A DNA stretch of 26,118 nt from a virus: positions 1 to 26,118 of IMG/VR virus record IMGVR_UViG_3300035665_000213, one strand, 5' to 3'. Numbering within the stretch: the first letter of the stretch is position 1; each line of letters opens with the position of its first letter. The notes under the pieces are model-generated. The model made no database searches, was not told the DNA's origin, and saw only the letters and a program-made list of their open reading frames with translations. This document shows positions 3,138 through 18,112 of the stretch, piece after piece. The translations under genes were made by a program, and so were the position numbers.

Positions 3138-3332
3138 ATGACCATCCACCAATACATCGAAAGAAAATACTTCCGGCTAAACACTATGGCAACAATACGC
3201 AACGGGGTATTATACCATTGGGTTAATAACCGTTGGATGCCGAACAAGGAATTTGAACGGATATACCCTCTGCCGAATAAGGTGGGAAAGCAACTTACTA
3301 ATCTTGATAAGAATAAGAACTCATTACTATGA
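3138..3332 (+). CDS. Small hypothetical protein, 64 aa
   Basis: A basic 64-residue protein starting MTIHQYIERKYFRLNTMATI, with a Trp-rich centre (LYHWVNNRWMPN). I recognise no family. An internal Met17 is an alternative start. It follows the hairpin after the SSB gene, and its stop overlaps the methyltransferase start (ATGA, 3329-3332), so the two are likely translationally coupled. A small helper of the methyltransferase is possible but not shown. Confidence 0.55.
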   Translation: MTIHQYIERKYFRLNTMATIRNGVLYHWVNNRWMPNKEFERIYPLPNKVGKQLTNLDKNKNSLL

Positions 3333-4474
3333 CACACGGATCATTATTCTCCGGCATAGGCGGCTTTGACTTAGCTGCCGAATGGATGGGTTGGGAAAAC
3401 GTATTCCATTGCGAATGGAATGAGTTTGGTAAAAAAGTATTACATCATTATTGGCCACAATCAATTTCATATCATGACATCACTAAAACAGACTTCACTA
3501 TTCACCGAGGAAAAATTGACATCCTCACGGGTGGTTTTCCGTGCCAACCGTACTCAAGTGCCGGAAAGCGAAAAGGCAAAGAAGATGAGCGACATCTCTG
3601 GCCGGAAATGCTTAGAGCAATTAGAGAAATTCAACCACGTTGGGTTGTGGGCGAGAATGTTCTCGGCCTTGTTAATTGGTCAGGGGGATTGGTTTTCCAC
3701 GAGGTGCAAGCTGACTTGGAAGCTGCGGGGTACGAAGTATGGCCGTATGTACTTCCAGCTGTATCCGTTAACGCTCCCCACAGAAGAGATAGGGTTTGGT
3801 TTGTTGCCTACGCCAACTTGTGCGGAAACGATACAACCGAAGGAGGCAAGAGAAGTTTTCGGAAACAACCGAATAAAAAGCAACAACGGGATAGAAGGGC
3901 AATGCAAACTAACGGACTTAGCAATGAATGGCCTACTCCCCACCCCAACGGCGTTCGATTACAACAGCGCAAGAACACCGGAGAAATGGGAGGAGGACAA
4001 ACAGAAATGGGCGGACAAAGGAGTGAATCTACAAATGCCATTGAAACAAATGGCAAGGCTGCAAATGTTACCCACCCCAACGGCAATGGATTCAACCAAC
4101 GCAACGGCAACGATGAAGAGCAGCCAAGTGAAAGAGGGGAGTATGCACTCTGTAACGCTGACACGGGCGATGAGTATGGGGATGTTGCCGACACCAATGG
4201 CATCGGATTGCGGGGAGAAAGTAACGGGATTGGAAAATCAAGATTCACTAACGAAGCGGGCGAGATTGGAAACTGGCAAAACTTCCCAACTCAATCCCCT
4301 ATTTGTTCTCGAAATGATGGGCTTTCCTCCCGACTGGACAACATTACCTTTTCTAAGTGGAGAAACGAATCAATCAAAGCAGCAGGTAACGCTATAGTAC
4401 CGCAAGTCGTTTTAATGATATTTAAGGCTATTGAAGAATATGAAACAACACCCCCTCTGGAAAATACGCTATAA
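3329..4474 (+). CDS. dcm: C5-cytosine DNA methyltransferase
   Basis: A 381-residue protein with the ordered motifs of C5-cytosine methyltransferases. Motif I LFSGIGGFDLA (residues 6-16) binds S-adenosylmethionine; motif IV GGFPCQPYSS (68-77) holds the catalytic Cys72; motif VI ENV (109-111); motif VIII HRRDRVW (151-157); and motif X GNAIVPQV (353-360) closes the fold. Between about 165 and 315 the target-recognition part is Asn/Gly/Gln-rich and carries repeated N-G motifs (HPNGVR, HPNGNG, DTNGIG). The enzyme would methylate phage DNA and probably shield it from host restriction; no cognate endonuclease is recognisable. A 307-codon ORF in another frame lies wholly inside this gene, which explains the odd composition. 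It overlaps the genes on both sides. Confidence 0.9.
   Translation: MTHGSLFSGIGGFDLAAEWMGWENVFHCEWNEFGKKVLHHYWPQSISYHDITKTDFTIHRGKIDILTGGFPCQPYSSAGKRKGKEDERHLWPEMLRAIREIQPRWVVGENVLGLVNWSGGLVFHEVQADLEAAGYEVWPYVLPAVSVNAPHRRDRVWFVAYANLCGNDTTEGGKRSFRKQPNKKQQRDRRAMQTNGLSNEWPTPHPNGVRLQQRKNTGEMGGGQTEMGGQRSESTNAIETNGKAANVTHPNGNGFNQRNGNDEEQPSERGEYALCNADTGDEYGDVADTNGIGLRGESNGIGKSRFTNEAGEIGNWQNFPTQSPICSRNDGLSSRLDNITFSKWRNESIKAAGNAIVPQVVLMIFKAIEEYETTPPLENTL
3474..4397 (+). CDS. Overlapping LPTP-repeat protein nested in the methyltransferase gene
   Basis: A 307-codon ORF in the +1 frame relative to the methyltransferase, from ATG 3474 (the frame stays open with an earlier ATG at 3420). It does not look like a shadow. 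It begins MTSLKQTSLFTEEKLTSS, contains CLEQLEKFNHVGLWARMFSA and STRCKLTWKLRGTKYGRMYF, carries four LPTP motifs (residues 111, 155, 199, 238), and ends with SQLNPLFVLEMMGFPPDWT. I recall such LLPTPTAxD and LNPxFVxxMMGFPxxW stretches from phage and bacterial proteins annotated near or as cytosine methyltransferases. The function is not known; a DNA-recognition partner of the methyltransferase is a guess. Expression would need internal initiation inside the methyltransferase mRNA. Confidence 0.65.
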   Translation: MTSLKQTSLFTEEKLTSSRVVFRANRTQVPESEKAKKMSDISGRKCLEQLEKFNHVGLWARMFSALLIGQGDWFSTRCKLTWKLRGTKYGRMYFQLYPLTLPTEEIGFGLLPTPTCAETIQPKEAREVFGNNRIKSNNGIEGQCKLTDLAMNGLLPTPTAFDYNSARTPEKWEEDKQKWADKGVNLQMPLKQMARLQMLPTPTAMDSTNATATMKSSQVKEGSMHSVTLTRAMSMGMLPTPMASDCGEKVTGLENQDSLTKRARLETGKTSQLNPLFVLEMMGFPPDWTTLPFLSGETNQSKQQVTL

Positions 4475-4886
4475 CACCGCCCATTACAATTACACCCTTG
4501 AGCGTACCCCGAATGTGGTAAAGGATGGATTCTACACCGGGCCGCCTACGCCTGTGGTTACTAAGTCCAATGGGCTGACAACATTCATAATCAACTTCCT
4601 GAACTGGTCGGGCTACCGGGCTACACGGATCAACACTATGGGTAGGCAGATTAACGGTAAGTTTATCCCATCGGCAACCCGGAAGGGTACGGCTGATATT
4701 TCGGCTACGATTCGTGATAAGAACGGAATAGGCAGAAGCATTATGATAGAAATAAAAGTTGGGAAAGATAAAGCATCGCAGTATCAATTAGATGAGCAAA
4801 AAAAAGAAAGACAGGCAGGCGGCATCTATGAATTTATATCTACACCGGAACAATTCTTTACGTTATTTGATTCAATAATAAATTAA
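4440..4886 (+). CDS. PD-(D/E)XK nuclease, VRR-NUC-like
   Basis: A 148-residue protein from ATG 4440 (a TTG at 4431 is a less likely start). The core is GTADISATI, then SIMIEIKVGKDKASQYQLDE and a Tyr/Phe strand. This gives the G-x-x-D ... E-x-K of PD-(D/E)XK nucleases of the VRR-NUC/Hjc type, with the Asp in G-T-A-D and the Glu/Lys in E-I-K. The later Gln in Q-Y-Q-L-D-E is typical of the family. Such phage enzymes cut branched or flap DNA in recombination. It overlaps the methyltransferase end by 35 bases. It could supply nuclease activity for the RecT system or resolve replication intermediates. Acting as the restriction partner of the methyltransferase is possible but less likely. Confidence 0.75.
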   Translation: MKQHPLWKIRYNTAHYNYTLERTPNVVKDGFYTGPPTPVVTKSNGLTTFIINFLNWSGYRATRINTMGRQINGKFIPSATRKGTADISATIRDKNGIGRSIMIEIKVGKDKASQYQLDEQKKERQAGGIYEFISTPEQFFTLFDSIIN

Positions 4887-7798: not shown

Positions 7799-8068
7799 AT
7801 GGCTATTGGAAAAAAGACAGGAGGCAGAACAAAGGGGGCGGTTAATCACTTTACTCGCTCGGTACGTGAGGTTATTACTGATGCGTTTCACGAAATGCAA
7901 CTTAAGCCAGGGGTTAATATGTTGGAATGGGGCGAACAAAACCCAACCGAATTTTACCGCCTGGCATCCAAACTGATTCCGCTACAGGTAGCCAACGATC
8001 CCGATAACCCAATGCCGACTACCATCATTCAGATTATCCCCGACACCAAATCCCACCCCATTGTATAA
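7799..8068 (+). CDS. Possible small terminase subunit, 89 aa
   Basis: An 89-residue protein: a basic N-terminus (MAIGKKTGGRTKGAVNHFTR) followed by a helical part (VREVITDAFHEM, then LEWGEQNPTEFYRLASKLIP) and a beta-like tail. Similar short proteins with a G-R-x-K-G head and a W-G-x-x-N-P-x-x-F-Y motif stand just before terminase large subunits in many phages. They are taken to be DNA-binding small terminases. Here it is the first late gene, but the large subunit follows only after six sugar/methyl-transferase genes. The family is recognised by pattern only; it could be another small DNA-binding protein. Confidence 0.5.
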   Translation: MAIGKKTGGRTKGAVNHFTRSVREVITDAFHEMQLKPGVNMLEWGEQNPTEFYRLASKLIPLQVANDPDNPMPTTIIQIIPDTKSHPIV

Positions 8069-8132
8069 ATTGTGTGTTTATTGTGGAAAACAAAAGTGCC
8101 GTCTTCAGATGGACCATACCAAAGATATTTGT

Positions 8133-8140
8133 TATCTTTG
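8133..8140 (+). promoter_or_regulatory. Possible promoter -7 box before glycosyltransferase
   Basis: TATCTTTG fits TAnnTTTG and lies 20 bases before the ATG at 8160, but there is no convincing -33 element. If active, it gives the sugar-transferase cassette its own promoter and supports the ATG at 8160 as the start of the first gene. Confidence 0.35.
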
Positions 8141-8159
8141 TGAAACACGAGCAGACACC

Positions 8160-8819
8160 ATGCACATACATTACAACTTTGCCACACGTAGCCGGCCCGA
8201 AAAGATGGCTGCTGCATTTGCTACCATTCAGGCATATTCACATTCTAAGAAGTACACGGTTGGACTGACCGTAGATGATGATGATACCGTTACGCTAAAC
8301 TCAAATGAGTTATCCGACCTGCTAAAGTTCCCCAATGTATTTATCACAATGGGTAAATCAAAAAGCAAGGTACACGCCATCAACCGGGGTATGGAAGGAT
8401 GGCAGGGTGATATAGTTGTGAATATGTCCGATGACATGCGTTTCCTAAAGCAGGGCTATGACATTGATATTATCAATGCATTTGAGGGTAACTTAGACCT
8501 ATTCATTCACTTTCCCGATGGGCGGGTTAATCACCTGCTGCCAACGATGTCAATCATGGGTAGAACGTATTATGAGCGGTTCGGGTACATCTACCACCCC
8601 CAATATGAATCCCTTTGGTGCGATAACGAGGCTATGGATGTGGCGAAGATGTGCAATTCGTATAAATACGTAGATAAGCGGATATTTGACCACTACCACC
8701 CTGCATGGACTGGGGAGCCTGTAGATGCGTTGCTTAATCATACTCAATCGTTTTACCGGGCGGATGAGATTACTTACATCCGGAGAAGTAAGGCCGGGTT
8801 CCCTAAACACAACGTATGA
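8160..8819 (+). CDS. Glycosyltransferase, GT-A fold
   Basis: A 219-residue protein from ATG 8160. The frame is open back to a TTG at 8061, and that extension has two C-x-x-C pairs, but no good start. The body has the GT-A glycosyltransferase layout: NFATRSRPEKMAAAF near the N-terminus; VDDDDTV (about 38-44) after a strand; KVHAINRGM, a typical sugar-nucleotide loop; and NMSDDM (88-93) as the D-x-D-like metal site. Late residues form an acceptor part (WCDNEAMD). It would transfer a sugar from a nucleotide donor; donor and acceptor are unknown. It overlaps the next gene by 4 bases (ATGA), so the two are coupled. This opens the glycan cassette between the terminase genes. Confidence 0.75.
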   Translation: MHIHYNFATRSRPEKMAAAFATIQAYSHSKKYTVGLTVDDDDTVTLNSNELSDLLKFPNVFITMGKSKSKVHAINRGMEGWQGDIVVNMSDDMRFLKQGYDIDIINAFEGNLDLFIHFPDGRVNHLLPTMSIMGRTYYERFGYIYHPQYESLWCDNEAMDVAKMCNSYKYVDKRIFDHYHPAWTGEPVDALLNHTQSFYRADEITYIRRSKAGFPKHNV

Positions 8820-9358
8820 CCCTATCCATCCTAATTTGCACCCTACCCCAACGCATAGGCTACCTATCGCAGTTGCTACAGGTACTGACACCGCAACGTA
8901 CACCGGAGGTTGAAGTTCTAACTGAATCGGACAACGGTGCAATGACTACAGGGCGTAAACGTAACCTACTCTTACAACGCAGCACAGGCAAATACGTGGT
9001 ATTTATTGATGATGATGATATGGTTGCAAGTACCTACATAGCCGATATACTTGCCGCCGCCGAATCTAATCCCGATGCCATTGTATTTAACGGCACAATG
9101 ACCACCAACGGCACGGATGAGCGTAAGTGGTACATATCAAAGGATTACGGCTACGAGGCGAAGGGTGGGGCTTATTACCGCTATCCTAATCATATCGTAC
9201 CCATTAGAAGGGAGATTGCAATGGCATTCCCTTTTATGGATATACGTATAGGTGAGGATTATGCGTGGGCTACTGCTATACACAATGCAGGGCTGATTAA
9301 GACAGAGGTGAAGATTGAGAAGGAACTTTATCACTATCAATTCCGTACAAACAAATGA
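8816..9358 (+). CDS. Glycosyltransferase family 2
   Basis: A compact 180-residue GT2 enzyme: MTLSILICTLPQRIGYLSQL is the nucleotide-binding start of the family, GRKRNLLLQRSTGKYVVF precedes the metal site, and IDDDDMV (about 64-70) is the D-x-D motif. GEDYAWA (about 148-154) fits the catalytic E-D loop near the end. It is shorter than typical GT2 proteins (about 230-330 aa) but has the core. It overlaps the genes on both sides by 4 bases. Probable role: adding a sugar to a virion or cell-surface glycan along with its neighbours. Confidence 0.85.
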   Translation: MTLSILICTLPQRIGYLSQLLQVLTPQRTPEVEVLTESDNGAMTTGRKRNLLLQRSTGKYVVFIDDDDMVASTYIADILAAAESNPDAIVFNGTMTTNGTDERKWYISKDYGYEAKGGAYYRYPNHIVPIRREIAMAFPFMDIRIGEDYAWATAIHNAGLIKTEVKIEKELYHYQFRTNK

Positions 9359-9954
9359 GATATAGCCAAAATAACGAGCAGGATATAATCCTTGCCTACT
9401 TCCAATCCCGCAAAGGATTCTTTCTGGATATTGGTGCGAACGATGGCGTTACCCTATCCAATACCTACGCATTGCAGCAACAGGGTTGGAGTGGTGTACT
9501 GGTAGAACCGAGCGAGGAAGCCTTCAACCGCATCTTAGCCAATCCTATGGTACACAAATTCAATGTAGCCATAGGCGAAACGGATGGGCATTGTACCTTC
9601 CATGAGATGGGCAATCATTTGGGTAGGGGCGATGTATCGCTGCTTAGTACAATCAAACGCAACGAAACTAAACGATGGCCGTGTACGGAGTTCAAAGAGC
9701 GAATGACCGAGGTATGGACTTACAACACCCTGGTAAAGAACTCCCCATTAAAATACTTTGATTTCATCTCTATTGATGCCGAGGGGGTAGATTATGAGAT
9801 ATTAGAACAGATTAACCTGAAGCATACGCAAATGGTATGCATTGAACATAATGGTAACGTAGACCTGTTCCATTTAATTAAAGACTACTGCAATGCAGCA
9901 GGGTTGAATAAATGCTTATTAACTAACTTAGAGAATGTAATATGGGCCAGATAA
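9355..9954 (+). CDS. FkbM-family methyltransferase
   Basis: A 199-residue S-adenosylmethionine-dependent methyltransferase of the FkbM family. FFLDIGANDGVTLSNTYAL (about 22-40) is the SAM-binding motif I in the FkbM form. GVLVEPSEEAF follows as motif II, and KYFDFISIDAEGVDYEIL is the characteristic downstream D-x-E-G segment. FkbM enzymes usually O-methylate sugars or hydroxyl groups on glycans. In this cassette, capping or masking a sugar chain is the likely job. It overlaps the following gene by 13 bases. Confidence 0.85.
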   Translation: MRYSQNNEQDIILAYFQSRKGFFLDIGANDGVTLSNTYALQQQGWSGVLVEPSEEAFNRILANPMVHKFNVAIGETDGHCTFHEMGNHLGRGDVSLLSTIKRNETKRWPCTEFKERMTEVWTYNTLVKNSPLKYFDFISIDAEGVDYEILEQINLKHTQMVCIEHNGNVDLFHLIKDYCNAAGLNKCLLTNLENVIWAR

Positions 9955-10679
9955 CATCGGGTAAAGTAATTGTATCCCTATCCTCAACAGGCAGGGAAAA
10001 CTACAACGAGGCACAACTCGGACTAATCAGAAGTATAGACCGCAAGGCACCTGATTACGATGTACACCTTCGGAGTGTGGATGGGTATGTTGATGAATAC
10101 CTTGAGCGTAAGATTCACCTCGGAGACTGGCCTAATACCGAACGATGGGGTAAGTCATGGAATCACCAAAATATGCCTTATCAATTCAAGCCGTTTATGG
10201 TAGCGGAGGCACTTGAGATGGGATACCGGAAAATCATTTGGTGTGATTCAACAATCAGGGTACACCAGAATCCCGATCCGTTGTGGGCATTAGCAGCCAA
10301 GCATGGGATAGTAGCATGGAACAACGAAGGGCATCCGTTACACAAGTACATACCCGACCATCAAATCAAGTTCTTAGGGCTAAATAGCTATAGGTATGTG
10401 ATTACCATGTACCAAATTATGGCCTGTTGTATTGTGTTTGATTTCGACCATCCTGCAACGATGCCTATCTTTGAGAAATGGATACAGGGAGCGAAGGAGA
10501 ATTGTTTTCATCACAACGAATCGGTTAATCCGCAATATATCAGCAGCCGACATGACCAGGCACTACTATCCGGATTGATGAATCTTGCAGGGATTCCGGT
10601 GCAGCCGTACGGAGGATTAGCATATCGGCACTATCTACCTGTTGAACCATTCTTTATTAATTGGGGGGTAAAGGATTAA
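9942..10679 (+). CDS. Putative glycosyltransferase, GT8-like
   Basis: A 245-residue protein starting MGQITSGKVIVSLSSTGREN. KIIWCDSTIRVHQNP (about 96-110) resembles the strand-and-metal site of GT8-like or related GT-A enzymes, with a D-S in place of a strict D-x-D. QFKPFMVAEALEMGY just before and RHDQALLSGL (about 205-214) after are typical of nucleotide-sugar transferases that read D-Q in the acceptor loop. No exact family can be named; a sugar transferase in the same cassette is the best reading. It overlaps the FkbM gene by 13 bases and ends 2 bases before the next ATG. Confidence 0.6.
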   Translation: MGQITSGKVIVSLSSTGRENYNEAQLGLIRSIDRKAPDYDVHLRSVDGYVDEYLERKIHLGDWPNTERWGKSWNHQNMPYQFKPFMVAEALEMGYRKIIWCDSTIRVHQNPDPLWALAAKHGIVAWNNEGHPLHKYIPDHQIKFLGLNSYRYVITMYQIMACCIVFDFDHPATMPIFEKWIQGAKENCFHHNESVNPQYISSRHDQALLSGLMNLAGIPVQPYGGLAYRHYLPVEPFFINWGVKD

Positions 10680-10681
10680 TT

Positions 10682-11296
10682 ATGGACTTCACCAAAGAGC
10701 AATTCATCAACTTTTGGGGCAGCAATGGCTACTATGAAGCGTTTACCTATGGGATAGGCATACAGGAAGTAATTAACCGAATTATCTATCCGTTTGGTGG
10801 TGTTGAAACCTGTTTAGAGATAGGATGCGGCGGAGGTGTATTTACTAAAGAATTATCGCATACTTTCAGTAAGGTTATCGGTATTGATGTTATTCCCCTA
10901 CATGCCGGAGTGATATACCATAATTTAGAATACAAGGAATTAGATAACCAAGACTATAAATGCACAGGTGTAGATGATAACTCAATCGACCTTGTATTCA
11001 GTTACGGAGTATTCTGCCATTTCTCAAATGATGCCATCAAAGAGTATCTGCAATCTATTTACAGAGTGATGAAGAAGGGCGGTGATTGTGTGATAATGAT
11101 TAGTAACTTTGATAAACTGAAAGCAGAGTTCCCCGACTTCGATGATTGGAGCAAATACAAGTTAGGGGATAGAATGTTAATCGGGCATTTTTACCAAGAT
11201 GATAGAACGGTGGATATTATGAAAGATAAATTCAAAATTGTTAGCCGTAATTTAACACCCGACCACAGGGATATAGTGGTACATCTAAAGAAATAA
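10682..11296 (+). CDS. Class I SAM-dependent methyltransferase
   Basis: A 204-residue methyltransferase from ATG 10682 (an upstream in-frame TTG at 10661 would overlap the previous gene). TCLEIGCGGGVFTKEL is a textbook motif I, IGIDVIP motif II, DNSIDLVFSYGVFCHF motifs IV/V, and RVMKKGGDCVIMIS motif VI. The later part (residues about 150-204) gives a small substrate cap. The substrate cannot be read from the sequence; its cassette suggests sugars or lipids rather than DNA, as no DNA-methylase N/D-P-P-Y motif is present. It is 2 bases from its neighbours on both sides, indicating one operon. Confidence 0.85.
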   Translation: MDFTKEQFINFWGSNGYYEAFTYGIGIQEVINRIIYPFGGVETCLEIGCGGGVFTKELSHTFSKVIGIDVIPLHAGVIYHNLEYKELDNQDYKCTGVDDNSIDLVFSYGVFCHFSNDAIKEYLQSIYRVMKKGGDCVIMISNFDKLKAEFPDFDDWSKYKLGDRMLIGHFYQDDRTVDIMKDKFKIVSRNLTPDHRDIVVHLKK

Positions 11297-17164: not shown

Positions 17165-18112
17165 GTGAGCGAAAACACCCCACCAAAAAGACTACGCATA
17201 TTGTGGCACGTACAGAATTACTTGCCAATGGCAAAATCTGGATCCGAATGGAACGCCCACAACATCAACAAATGGTTGATGAACAGAGGCCACCGGGTAA
17301 AGGTAATGACCTCAAAGATGAATAATGAGAATTACGAATACGATGGCATCCACGTATTCAATAGAAGCAATGATTGGTACTTTCACCATGAATGGGCTGA
17401 TATAATCTTTACACAATTAGACTTCGCAGGGGATGTAGCTATTGACTGCAAAAGCACAAAGAAGCCGGCCGTTTGGTTTGCTCATAATACTTTCATGTAC
17501 TCATCCGTTAGAACACACAGGGAGTTGAATGTAGTGTATAATTCATACTGGAATAGTGAGGAATGCAAGTATGCTAACAACGGATTCGTATTGCAGCCAC
17601 CGGTTGACATCAACCATTACAGGGGTGAGAAAGGAGATAAGATTACCCTAATCAATCTCAATCACAACAAAGGTGCTGAAATGTTCTACCGCATTGCTGA
17701 AGCTATGCCGGATAGGCAATTCTTAGCCATACAAGGCGGGTACGGGCAGCAGATATACAAAGAGTTACCGAATGTAGAGTTTATGGCTAATCAGTCGGAT
17801 ATACGAATCGCATATCGCAAAACGAGAATACTACTAATGCCATCCCACTACGAATCATGGGGGCGAACGGCTACCGAGGCAATGGCATCAGGTATCCCTG
17901 TTATTTGTACTAATCTACCGGGGCTGCGTGAGAACTGTGGAGATGCAGGTACGTACTGCAAACAGGATAGATTGGATGAGTGGGTGGCGGCTATACGAAA
18001 TGTGGAGGAAAACTACGAAATTTGCAGTAATAAGGCATACGATAGAGCAAATGAATTGCAGCCGGAAAACAATCTAATAAAATTCGAGCAATGGGTAACT
18101 ACTCTTACATAA
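17165..18112 (+). CDS. Glycosyltransferase, GT4 (GT-B) type
   Basis: A 315-residue GT-B glycosyltransferase starting with GTG at 17165. RILWHVQNYLPMAKSGSEWN (about 11-30) and HNINKWLMNRGHRVKVMTS form the acceptor-side Rossmann domain. LINLNHNKGAEMFYRIAEAM (162-181) starts the donor domain, and MPSHYESWGRTATEAMASGI carries the E-x7-E motif (Glu230, Glu238) that holds the nucleotide sugar. VNPGGL-like loops are replaced by ICTNLPGL. It lies between the capsid terminator and the connector genes, which it overlaps by 22 bases, so it is not a random insertion. Glycosylating a structural protein is plausible but unproven; the acceptor cannot be read from sequence. Confidence 0.85.
   Translation: MSENTPPKRLRILWHVQNYLPMAKSGSEWNAHNINKWLMNRGHRVKVMTSKMNNENYEYDGIHVFNRSNDWYFHHEWADIIFTQLDFAGDVAIDCKSTKKPAVWFAHNTFMYSSVRTHRELNVVYNSYWNSEECKYANNGFVLQPPVDINHYRGEKGDKITLINLNHNKGAEMFYRIAEAMPDRQFLAIQGGYGQQIYKELPNVEFMANQSDIRIAYRKTRILLMPSHYESWGRTATEAMASGIPVICTNLPGLRENCGDAGTYCKQDRLDEWVAAIRNVEENYEICSNKAYDRANELQPENNLIKFEQWVTTLT

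Follow-up and report, generated by a model that had tools for sequence, protein, structure and literature searches.

The locus and its two reading frames

The window, by which we mean the whole stretch of DNA analysed, is a virus record of 26,118 bases that carries tailed-phage genes for a RecT-like protein, a helicase/primase, a terminase, and portal and capsid proteins. One of its genes, here called alpha, encodes a C5-cytosine methyltransferase and encloses a second long frame, here called beta, that is read in the +1 frame of the same strand. The features of the locus are as follows.

3329 to 4474, + strand: alpha, C5-cytosine methyltransferase, proposed catalytic subunit, 381 aa (PF00145, PHROG_363, AlphaFold)
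3474 to 4397, + strand: beta, nested gene in the +1 frame, proposed target-recognition subunit, 307 aa (PHROG_1008, 465 IMG/VR relatives, 316 loci, dNN/dNS 0.38)
3600 to 3800, + strand: conserved N-terminal block of beta (G43, C46, W73, L80, W82, R91, L96; near-invariant alignment columns), overlapping alpha motifs V-VIII (alpha 0.18, beta 0.40)
3801 to 3932, + strand: LPTP module 1 of beta, 44 aa (module parsing)
3842 to 4342, + strand: variable and motif IX region as read in the alpha frame, residues 172-338 (pLDDT 34-48; alpha dNN/dSN 1.06 and 1.17)
3933 to 4064, + strand: LPTP module 2, 44 aa, a type seen 11 times in 215 non-redundant loci (module parsing)
4065 to 4181, + strand: LPTP module 3, 39 aa, the commonest type, seen 73 times in 215 non-redundant loci (module parsing)
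4182 to 4289, + strand: LPTP module 4, 36 aa, a type seen 29 times (module parsing)
4284 to 4340, + strand: motif IX in the beta frame, SQLNPLFVLEMMGFPPDWT, with invariant L273, M282, G283 and P285 and reversed codon positions
4382 to 4405, + strand: motif X in the alpha frame, AGNAIVPQ (invariant GNA..P columns)
4431 to 4886, + strand: downstream VRR-NUC-type endonuclease-like gene, given as context outside the enzyme (weak PHROG_93 endonuclease match, E 1e-4)

Residues 2-369 of alpha match PF00145 (E 4.7e-45), and the protein also matches PHROG_363 (E 2e-71). Motifs I, IV (PCQ), VI (ENV), VIII and X occur in order, as judged from PF00145 and invariant columns, so that the motif set is I-VIII plus X; a pattern search did not find motif IX in the alpha frame of the window, and the motif occurs in the +1 frame. 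M.HhaI could be aligned by sequence to residues 5-163, and the fold of the alpha model matches the C5-methyltransferases M.HhaI and M.HaeIII. The AlphaFold model, like that of beta built from alignments that left out two GenBank loci, is ordered at residues 1-165 and 341-374; the disordered part, 172-338, is the stretch spanned by the modules and motif IX.

The open stretch of the +1 frame within alpha begins at 3375. Its first ATG, at 3420, would give a protein of 325 aa, and the inner one, at 3474, gives a protein of 307 aa. In-frame stops, mostly TAA, are found in 98 of 147 relatives at the position equivalent to 3441 and in 24 of 147 at that equivalent to 3465, and a beta-frame ATG lies inside the equivalent of 3450-3540 in 145 of 149 loci. 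A start at 3420 is ruled out by the stops, and we prefer 3474 because many relatives carry stops upstream of it and nearly all have an ATG close to it.

We assessed the length of the nested frame against synonymous shuffles that retain the alpha protein and its codon usage. Of 5000 such shuffles of the window gene, only one left at least 307 +1 codons open. Across 220 non-redundant loci the +1 frame stays open for a mean of 287 codons where 111 are expected, and 192 of these loci exceed all 200 of their shuffles; the same test found no excess of open runs in the +2 frame. An earlier note on this DNA had described a 307-codon +1 frame at 3474-4397 lying wholly inside the methyltransferase gene, a methyltransferase frame with motifs I, IV, VI, VIII and X, and a nested frame with four (L/M)LPTP motifs and the end SQLNPLFVLEMMGFPPDWT. 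Each of these descriptions was borne out, including the choice of start and the motif assignment (PF00145, E 5e-45), and its view that both frames look like real proteins is supported both by the shuffles and by the selection measured over the whole overlap (alpha dNN/dSN 0.44, beta dNN/dNS 0.38). On sequence evidence, the nested ORF is a genuine, widely conserved gene.

Searches with beta against structures were uninformative. The protein had no match in a PDB sequence search, Foldseek with its model found nothing, and the AlphaFold model of beta alone is weak (pTM 0.27), which might be expected of a domain that depends on a partner but equally of an unrelated disordered protein. A Pfam match to Hantavirus nucleocapsid protein (E 0.012) was seen in 1 of 107 relatives only and was set aside as chance.

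Distribution of the nested pair

Beta lies in the same frame within alpha in 316 fetched loci (220 non-redundant), which come from tailed phages and from contigs of Bacteroidota, Bacillota, Planctomycetota and others. It matches PHROG_1008 (E 7e-31) and 54 annotated phages of Bacteroides, Paenibacillus, Lactobacillus, Porphyromonas and other hosts, and its relatives number 465 in IMG/VR and 177 in bacterial genome contigs. Loci found through beta show same-frame nesting in 81 of 83, 75 of 80 and 79 of 80 cases. When loci were instead found through the N-terminus of alpha alone, beta was nested in 79 of 80, and the one remaining locus is truncated by a contig end. Diverse phages and bacteria thus carry homologues of both frames in this same overlapping arrangement, and the case that the earlier note named as refuting, an intact methyltransferase with a broken second frame, was encountered in none of the loci found through the alpha N-terminus. 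As those loci are close relatives, we infer from them that beta is never lost within the clade of the window; they say nothing of methyltransferases at large.

Annotators of Paenibacillus phages had already marked the beta homologue as an internal gene. PHROG_1008 and the "internal genes" of the Paenibacillus phages Shelly (g55) and Lily (g62) belong to the same nested family and lie at the same position, but are labelled only as DNA methyltransferase or hypothetical protein, without function or domain logic. The PHROG_1008 label "DNA methyltransferase" is misleading, in that the members seen here are the nested frame and lack catalytic motifs. Separately, in two loci (L005, near 3026, and L076, near 3503) alpha is broken by an in-frame stop or frameshift, either a sequencing error or a real loss, and the nested beta is still open.

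Selection along the overlap

To follow selection in each frame, substitutions were sorted by their effect in both, using 33 disjoint pairs of loci more than 78% identical, with bootstrap intervals over pairs. Over the whole overlap both frames are constrained, with the interval for beta at 0.31-0.44. Upstream of the beta start alpha is strongly constrained (0.08) and the +1 frame is not (1.03), and over motifs V-VIII (3600-3823) both frames are under constraint (alpha 0.18, beta 0.40). In the variable region alpha stands at 1.06 (0.96-1.18) and beta at 0.31 (0.24-0.38), and in the motif IX region at 1.17 (0.88-1.68) and 0.31 (0.23-0.39), respectively; on the motif X side (4350-4397) the alpha ratio falls to 0.05. 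The +2 frame, taken as a control, is nowhere below 1 with support. The ends of beta, its first ~40 residues and its tail, are only weakly constrained. Past the beta stop the +1 ratio is 0.57, probably because the beta frame extends further in some relatives; given this value outside beta, little weight should be put on any one short region.

Codon-position diversity in 149 loci changes in the same region. Outside the overlap the third positions of alpha are the most variable (0.48-0.54). Within the motif IX stretch these third positions rank near the bottom in variability (0.19), and the most variable are the first positions of alpha (0.32), which are the third positions of beta. Selection thus alternates, acting on both frames up to motif VIII, on beta only over the variable and motif IX regions, and predominantly on alpha at motif X. 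Residues 172-338 of alpha are accordingly best described as predicted to be disordered and as without detectable selection of their own. The earlier note had proposed a conserved pair with constraint in both frames, and this holds for the overlap as a whole but not for every part of it at once.

Location of motif IX

In the window it is beta that carries motif IX (LNPLFVLEMMGFPPDW). Compared by hhalign, the beta motif IX is linked to the motif IX of a single-frame alpha protein with a probability of 81%, and no link was obtained to the Streptococcus enzyme; its equation with the canonical LTPRE-type motif IX is provisional and rests on position and pattern. We assigned the frame of the motif by regular expression in 494 classified loci: 439 showed it in the +1 frame and 30 in the alpha frame, 25 showed it in neither, and no locus showed it in both. 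Many of the 25 are truncated by contig ends or were missed by the pattern. That the motif never occurs in both frames is, for a regular-expression search, a strong tendency and not proof. Canonical methyltransferases that we checked individually (L495, L497, L498 and L326) have motif IX in frame and contain no long nested ORF resembling beta.

Relatives of the window pair distribute these segments differently. The enzyme of a Mycobacterium phage (L325) holds its LPTP modules together with motifs IX and X in the alpha frame (hhalign 95.7%). In the class of L334 and L415 motif IX alone has moved to alpha; this division, with the modules still in the +1 frame, is found in a Megaera plasmid and about 25 relatives in IMG/VR. 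Most lineages therefore carry motif IX in beta, and others carry it in alpha. The same segments can be read in either frame, and this ties beta to the enzyme.

Some further observations concern this region. In the actinophage loci L325 (1832-2227) and L328 (1544-2122) motif IX is in alpha, yet the +1 frame retains a beta-like N-terminal block and additionally one or two LPTP modules. This could be a beta reduced in length or a switch of frame that is only half complete. In the alpha frame, 4290-4342 of the window contains a conserved DDGLS..LD stretch, replaced by VADGVP.RVDR in other groups, which looks familiar from many annotated phage methyltransferases but is likely only a shadow of motif IX cast from the other frame, and may have been mistaken for a methyltransferase motif. 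A Bacillus pumilus plasmid (L499, 1426-2568) contains an unannotated C5-methyltransferase that ends inside motif IX and looks broken.

A reshuffled array of LPTP modules

The part of beta that separates its N-terminal block from motif IX is made up of one to six modules, which start with (L/M)LPTP and have a median length of 41 residues, as obtained by module parsing. The 215 non-redundant loci contain 282 module types at 70% identity, and the commonest type occurs at varying positions, next to 31 different types on its upstream side and 38 on its downstream side. Modules of one type have an amino acid identity of 0.71-0.91 when read in the beta frame; read in the alpha frame, the same DNA gives 0.39-0.64. 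Arrays differ even among loci whose first 480 alpha bases are identical: L017 and L024 differ by one inserted module, and L030 and L032 have exchanged their last modules. Both frames survive such exchanges because the swaps are made in whole codons. From their place, size and shuffling, we infer that the LPTP modules are target-recognition domains.

Discussion

A proposed split methyltransferase encoded in two frames

We consider it likely that the locus encodes one C5-cytosine methyltransferase split over two overlapping frames, with a catalytic domain in alpha and a target-recognition domain in beta; this division of roles, like expression, binding and methylation, is inferred. In this model alpha would fold as the catalytic large domain, formed by motifs I-VIII and completed by motif X, and would carry a floppy read-through linker in place of a recognition domain. 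Translation of beta would begin at an internal start of its own on the mRNA shared with alpha, and beta would bind alpha as the small domain of a two-chain enzyme, with its N-terminal block as a possible docking domain and motif IX organising the small domain. The earlier note had taken the nested frame for a partner of the enzyme made from one transcript with it, perhaps for target choice. The pairing is supported by the sequence evidence, with the coupling through one transcript inferred, but beta is better read as the missing half of the enzyme, with its modules and motif IX, than as a separate protein.

We put forward with less confidence, although on balance we favour it, a scheme of combinatorial targeting in which beta is a reshuffling array of autonomous modules, each for one sequence, that plugs into alpha, and in which segments hop between frames by insertions and deletions. 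Already in the split-enzyme model itself, each module of ~41 residues would recognise one DNA sequence, and the number and order of modules would set the sites that the phage methylates. Module swaps could then shield phage DNA from changing host restriction enzymes and leave the catalytic part untouched. Orphan phage methyltransferases guard phage DNA against restriction (PMC4190342), which would give a reason for rapid exchange of modules.

Alternative explanations

The alternative that survives best, though we regard it as unlikely, keeps the split enzyme and takes the LPTP modules as spacer or docking repeats, with specificity residing elsewhere in beta or in alpha. The nearly invariant LPTP start of every module would suit such a role, and there are no structural or specificity data. 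On the other hand, the modules occupy the recognition-domain site at a uniform ~41 aa, differ chiefly in what follows LPTP and are shuffled as cassettes, and a spacer has no need of 282 sequence types.

We give little credence to the idea of an independent beta protein, such as a regulator or restriction inhibitor, which merely shares DNA with an alpha that acts alone. The labels hypothetical protein and internal gene in Paenibacillus phages leave room for it, but no locus has motif IX in both frames, the predicted disordered gap of alpha falls exactly at the region in question, and homologous segments sit in the alpha frame of other enzymes.

It is also very improbable, in our estimation, that the two frames yield a single fused protein by programmed frameshifting near motif VIII, perhaps with a return before motif X. 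Relatives such as L325 and L334, which hold modules and/or motif IX in the alpha frame, indicate that the segments are workable in one chain. However, programmed frameshifting would leave the alternative frame constrained only 3' of the shift site, and beta does not behave in this way, being constrained already at 3600-3823, upstream of a useful shift point. Moreover, its ATG is kept at a similar place in nearly all loci, usually behind an in-frame stop, and motif X could be reached only through two opposite shifts.

Finally, the +1 frame might be a mere by-product, left open and conserved-looking by the conserved residues and codon usage of alpha, and it is true that conserved motif VIII yields TGETASGLWPTP-like strings in the +1 frame and that this frame is fairly open under codon shuffling (mean 124 codons), but the possibility is refuted by the rejection of the codon-shuffle null in nearly all 220 loci, by the codon-position reversal and dNN/dNS, which place constraint on beta and not alpha over the variable and motif IX region, and by the far greater similarity of the modules in the beta frame.

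Relation to known systems

The small ORF of the naturally split methyltransferase M.EcoHK31I (YGGCCR) is also nested in another frame, and beta, in the +1 frame, meets that description. By its motif layout, the alpha/beta arrangement resembles this enzyme, which carries motifs I-VIII and X on one, larger polypeptide and motif IX on the other, smaller one (PMC3404938). Both polypeptides of M.EcoHK31I are required for methylation, which for alpha and beta is only inferred. There are also differences. The predicted recognition domain of M.EcoHK31I is said to be in the larger chain, with only motif IX in the small one, whereas selection puts the whole variable region of the window pair, with one to six modules in the family, in beta; and M.EcoHK31I belongs to a restriction system, whereas no restriction enzyme was identified adjoining the alpha gene in the window. 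An EcoHK31I-like nested pair was sought in four plasmid methyltransferase loci and an E. coli plasmid, which yielded canonical enzymes only. M.AquI is also a two-chain C5-methyltransferase, but its type of split, with motifs IX and X on the second chain, is not met here, motif X being in alpha.

The recognition domains of multispecific Bacillus phage enzymes are ~40 aa long. The beta array, with modules of recognition-domain size, resembles the tandem target-recognition domains of such enzymes from Bacillus subtilis phages (M.SPRI, M.phi3TI, M.rho11sI and M.H2I), in which several such domains lie between motifs VIII and IX (Wilke 1988; Gunthert & Reiners 1987; cited in PMC8936443). Those enzymes are single chains, whereas the window array is on a nested second frame and each of its modules starts with LPTP; modules and catalytic motifs in one chain are absent from the window pair and found only in L325-like relatives. 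The HsdS protein of type I restriction systems is, like the proposed beta, a separate subunit bearing swappable recognition domains, but it serves unrelated adenine enzymes, is not nested and has two recognition domains.

In a literature search that excluded subscription papers, we found no description of the nested family beyond M.EcoHK31I, nor of the combination of two frames, the hand-over of selection and the shuffling of modules. To our knowledge, few long gene pairs nested on the same strand show demonstrable selection in both frames. The present pair occurs in hundreds of phage and prophage loci, where gene callers usually retain only one of the two frames. In it, the two domains of what we propose to be one enzyme would be written in two frames of a single stretch of DNA, and selection changes frame where one domain gives way to the next. 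Should the modules be recognition domains, their natural arrays together with phage methylomes could reveal which module specifies which sequence for 5-methylcytosine, and the pair could serve as a ready-made split methyltransferase open to reprogramming.

The surroundings of the gene offer some minor observations. In related Bacteroides phages a VRR-NUC gene is annotated directly upstream of the methyltransferase. Elsewhere in the window, a cluster of glycosyltransferase-like and SAM-methyltransferase-like genes (8061-11296) lies between the replication and head genes, and a further glycosyltransferase-like gene is found at 17165-18112.
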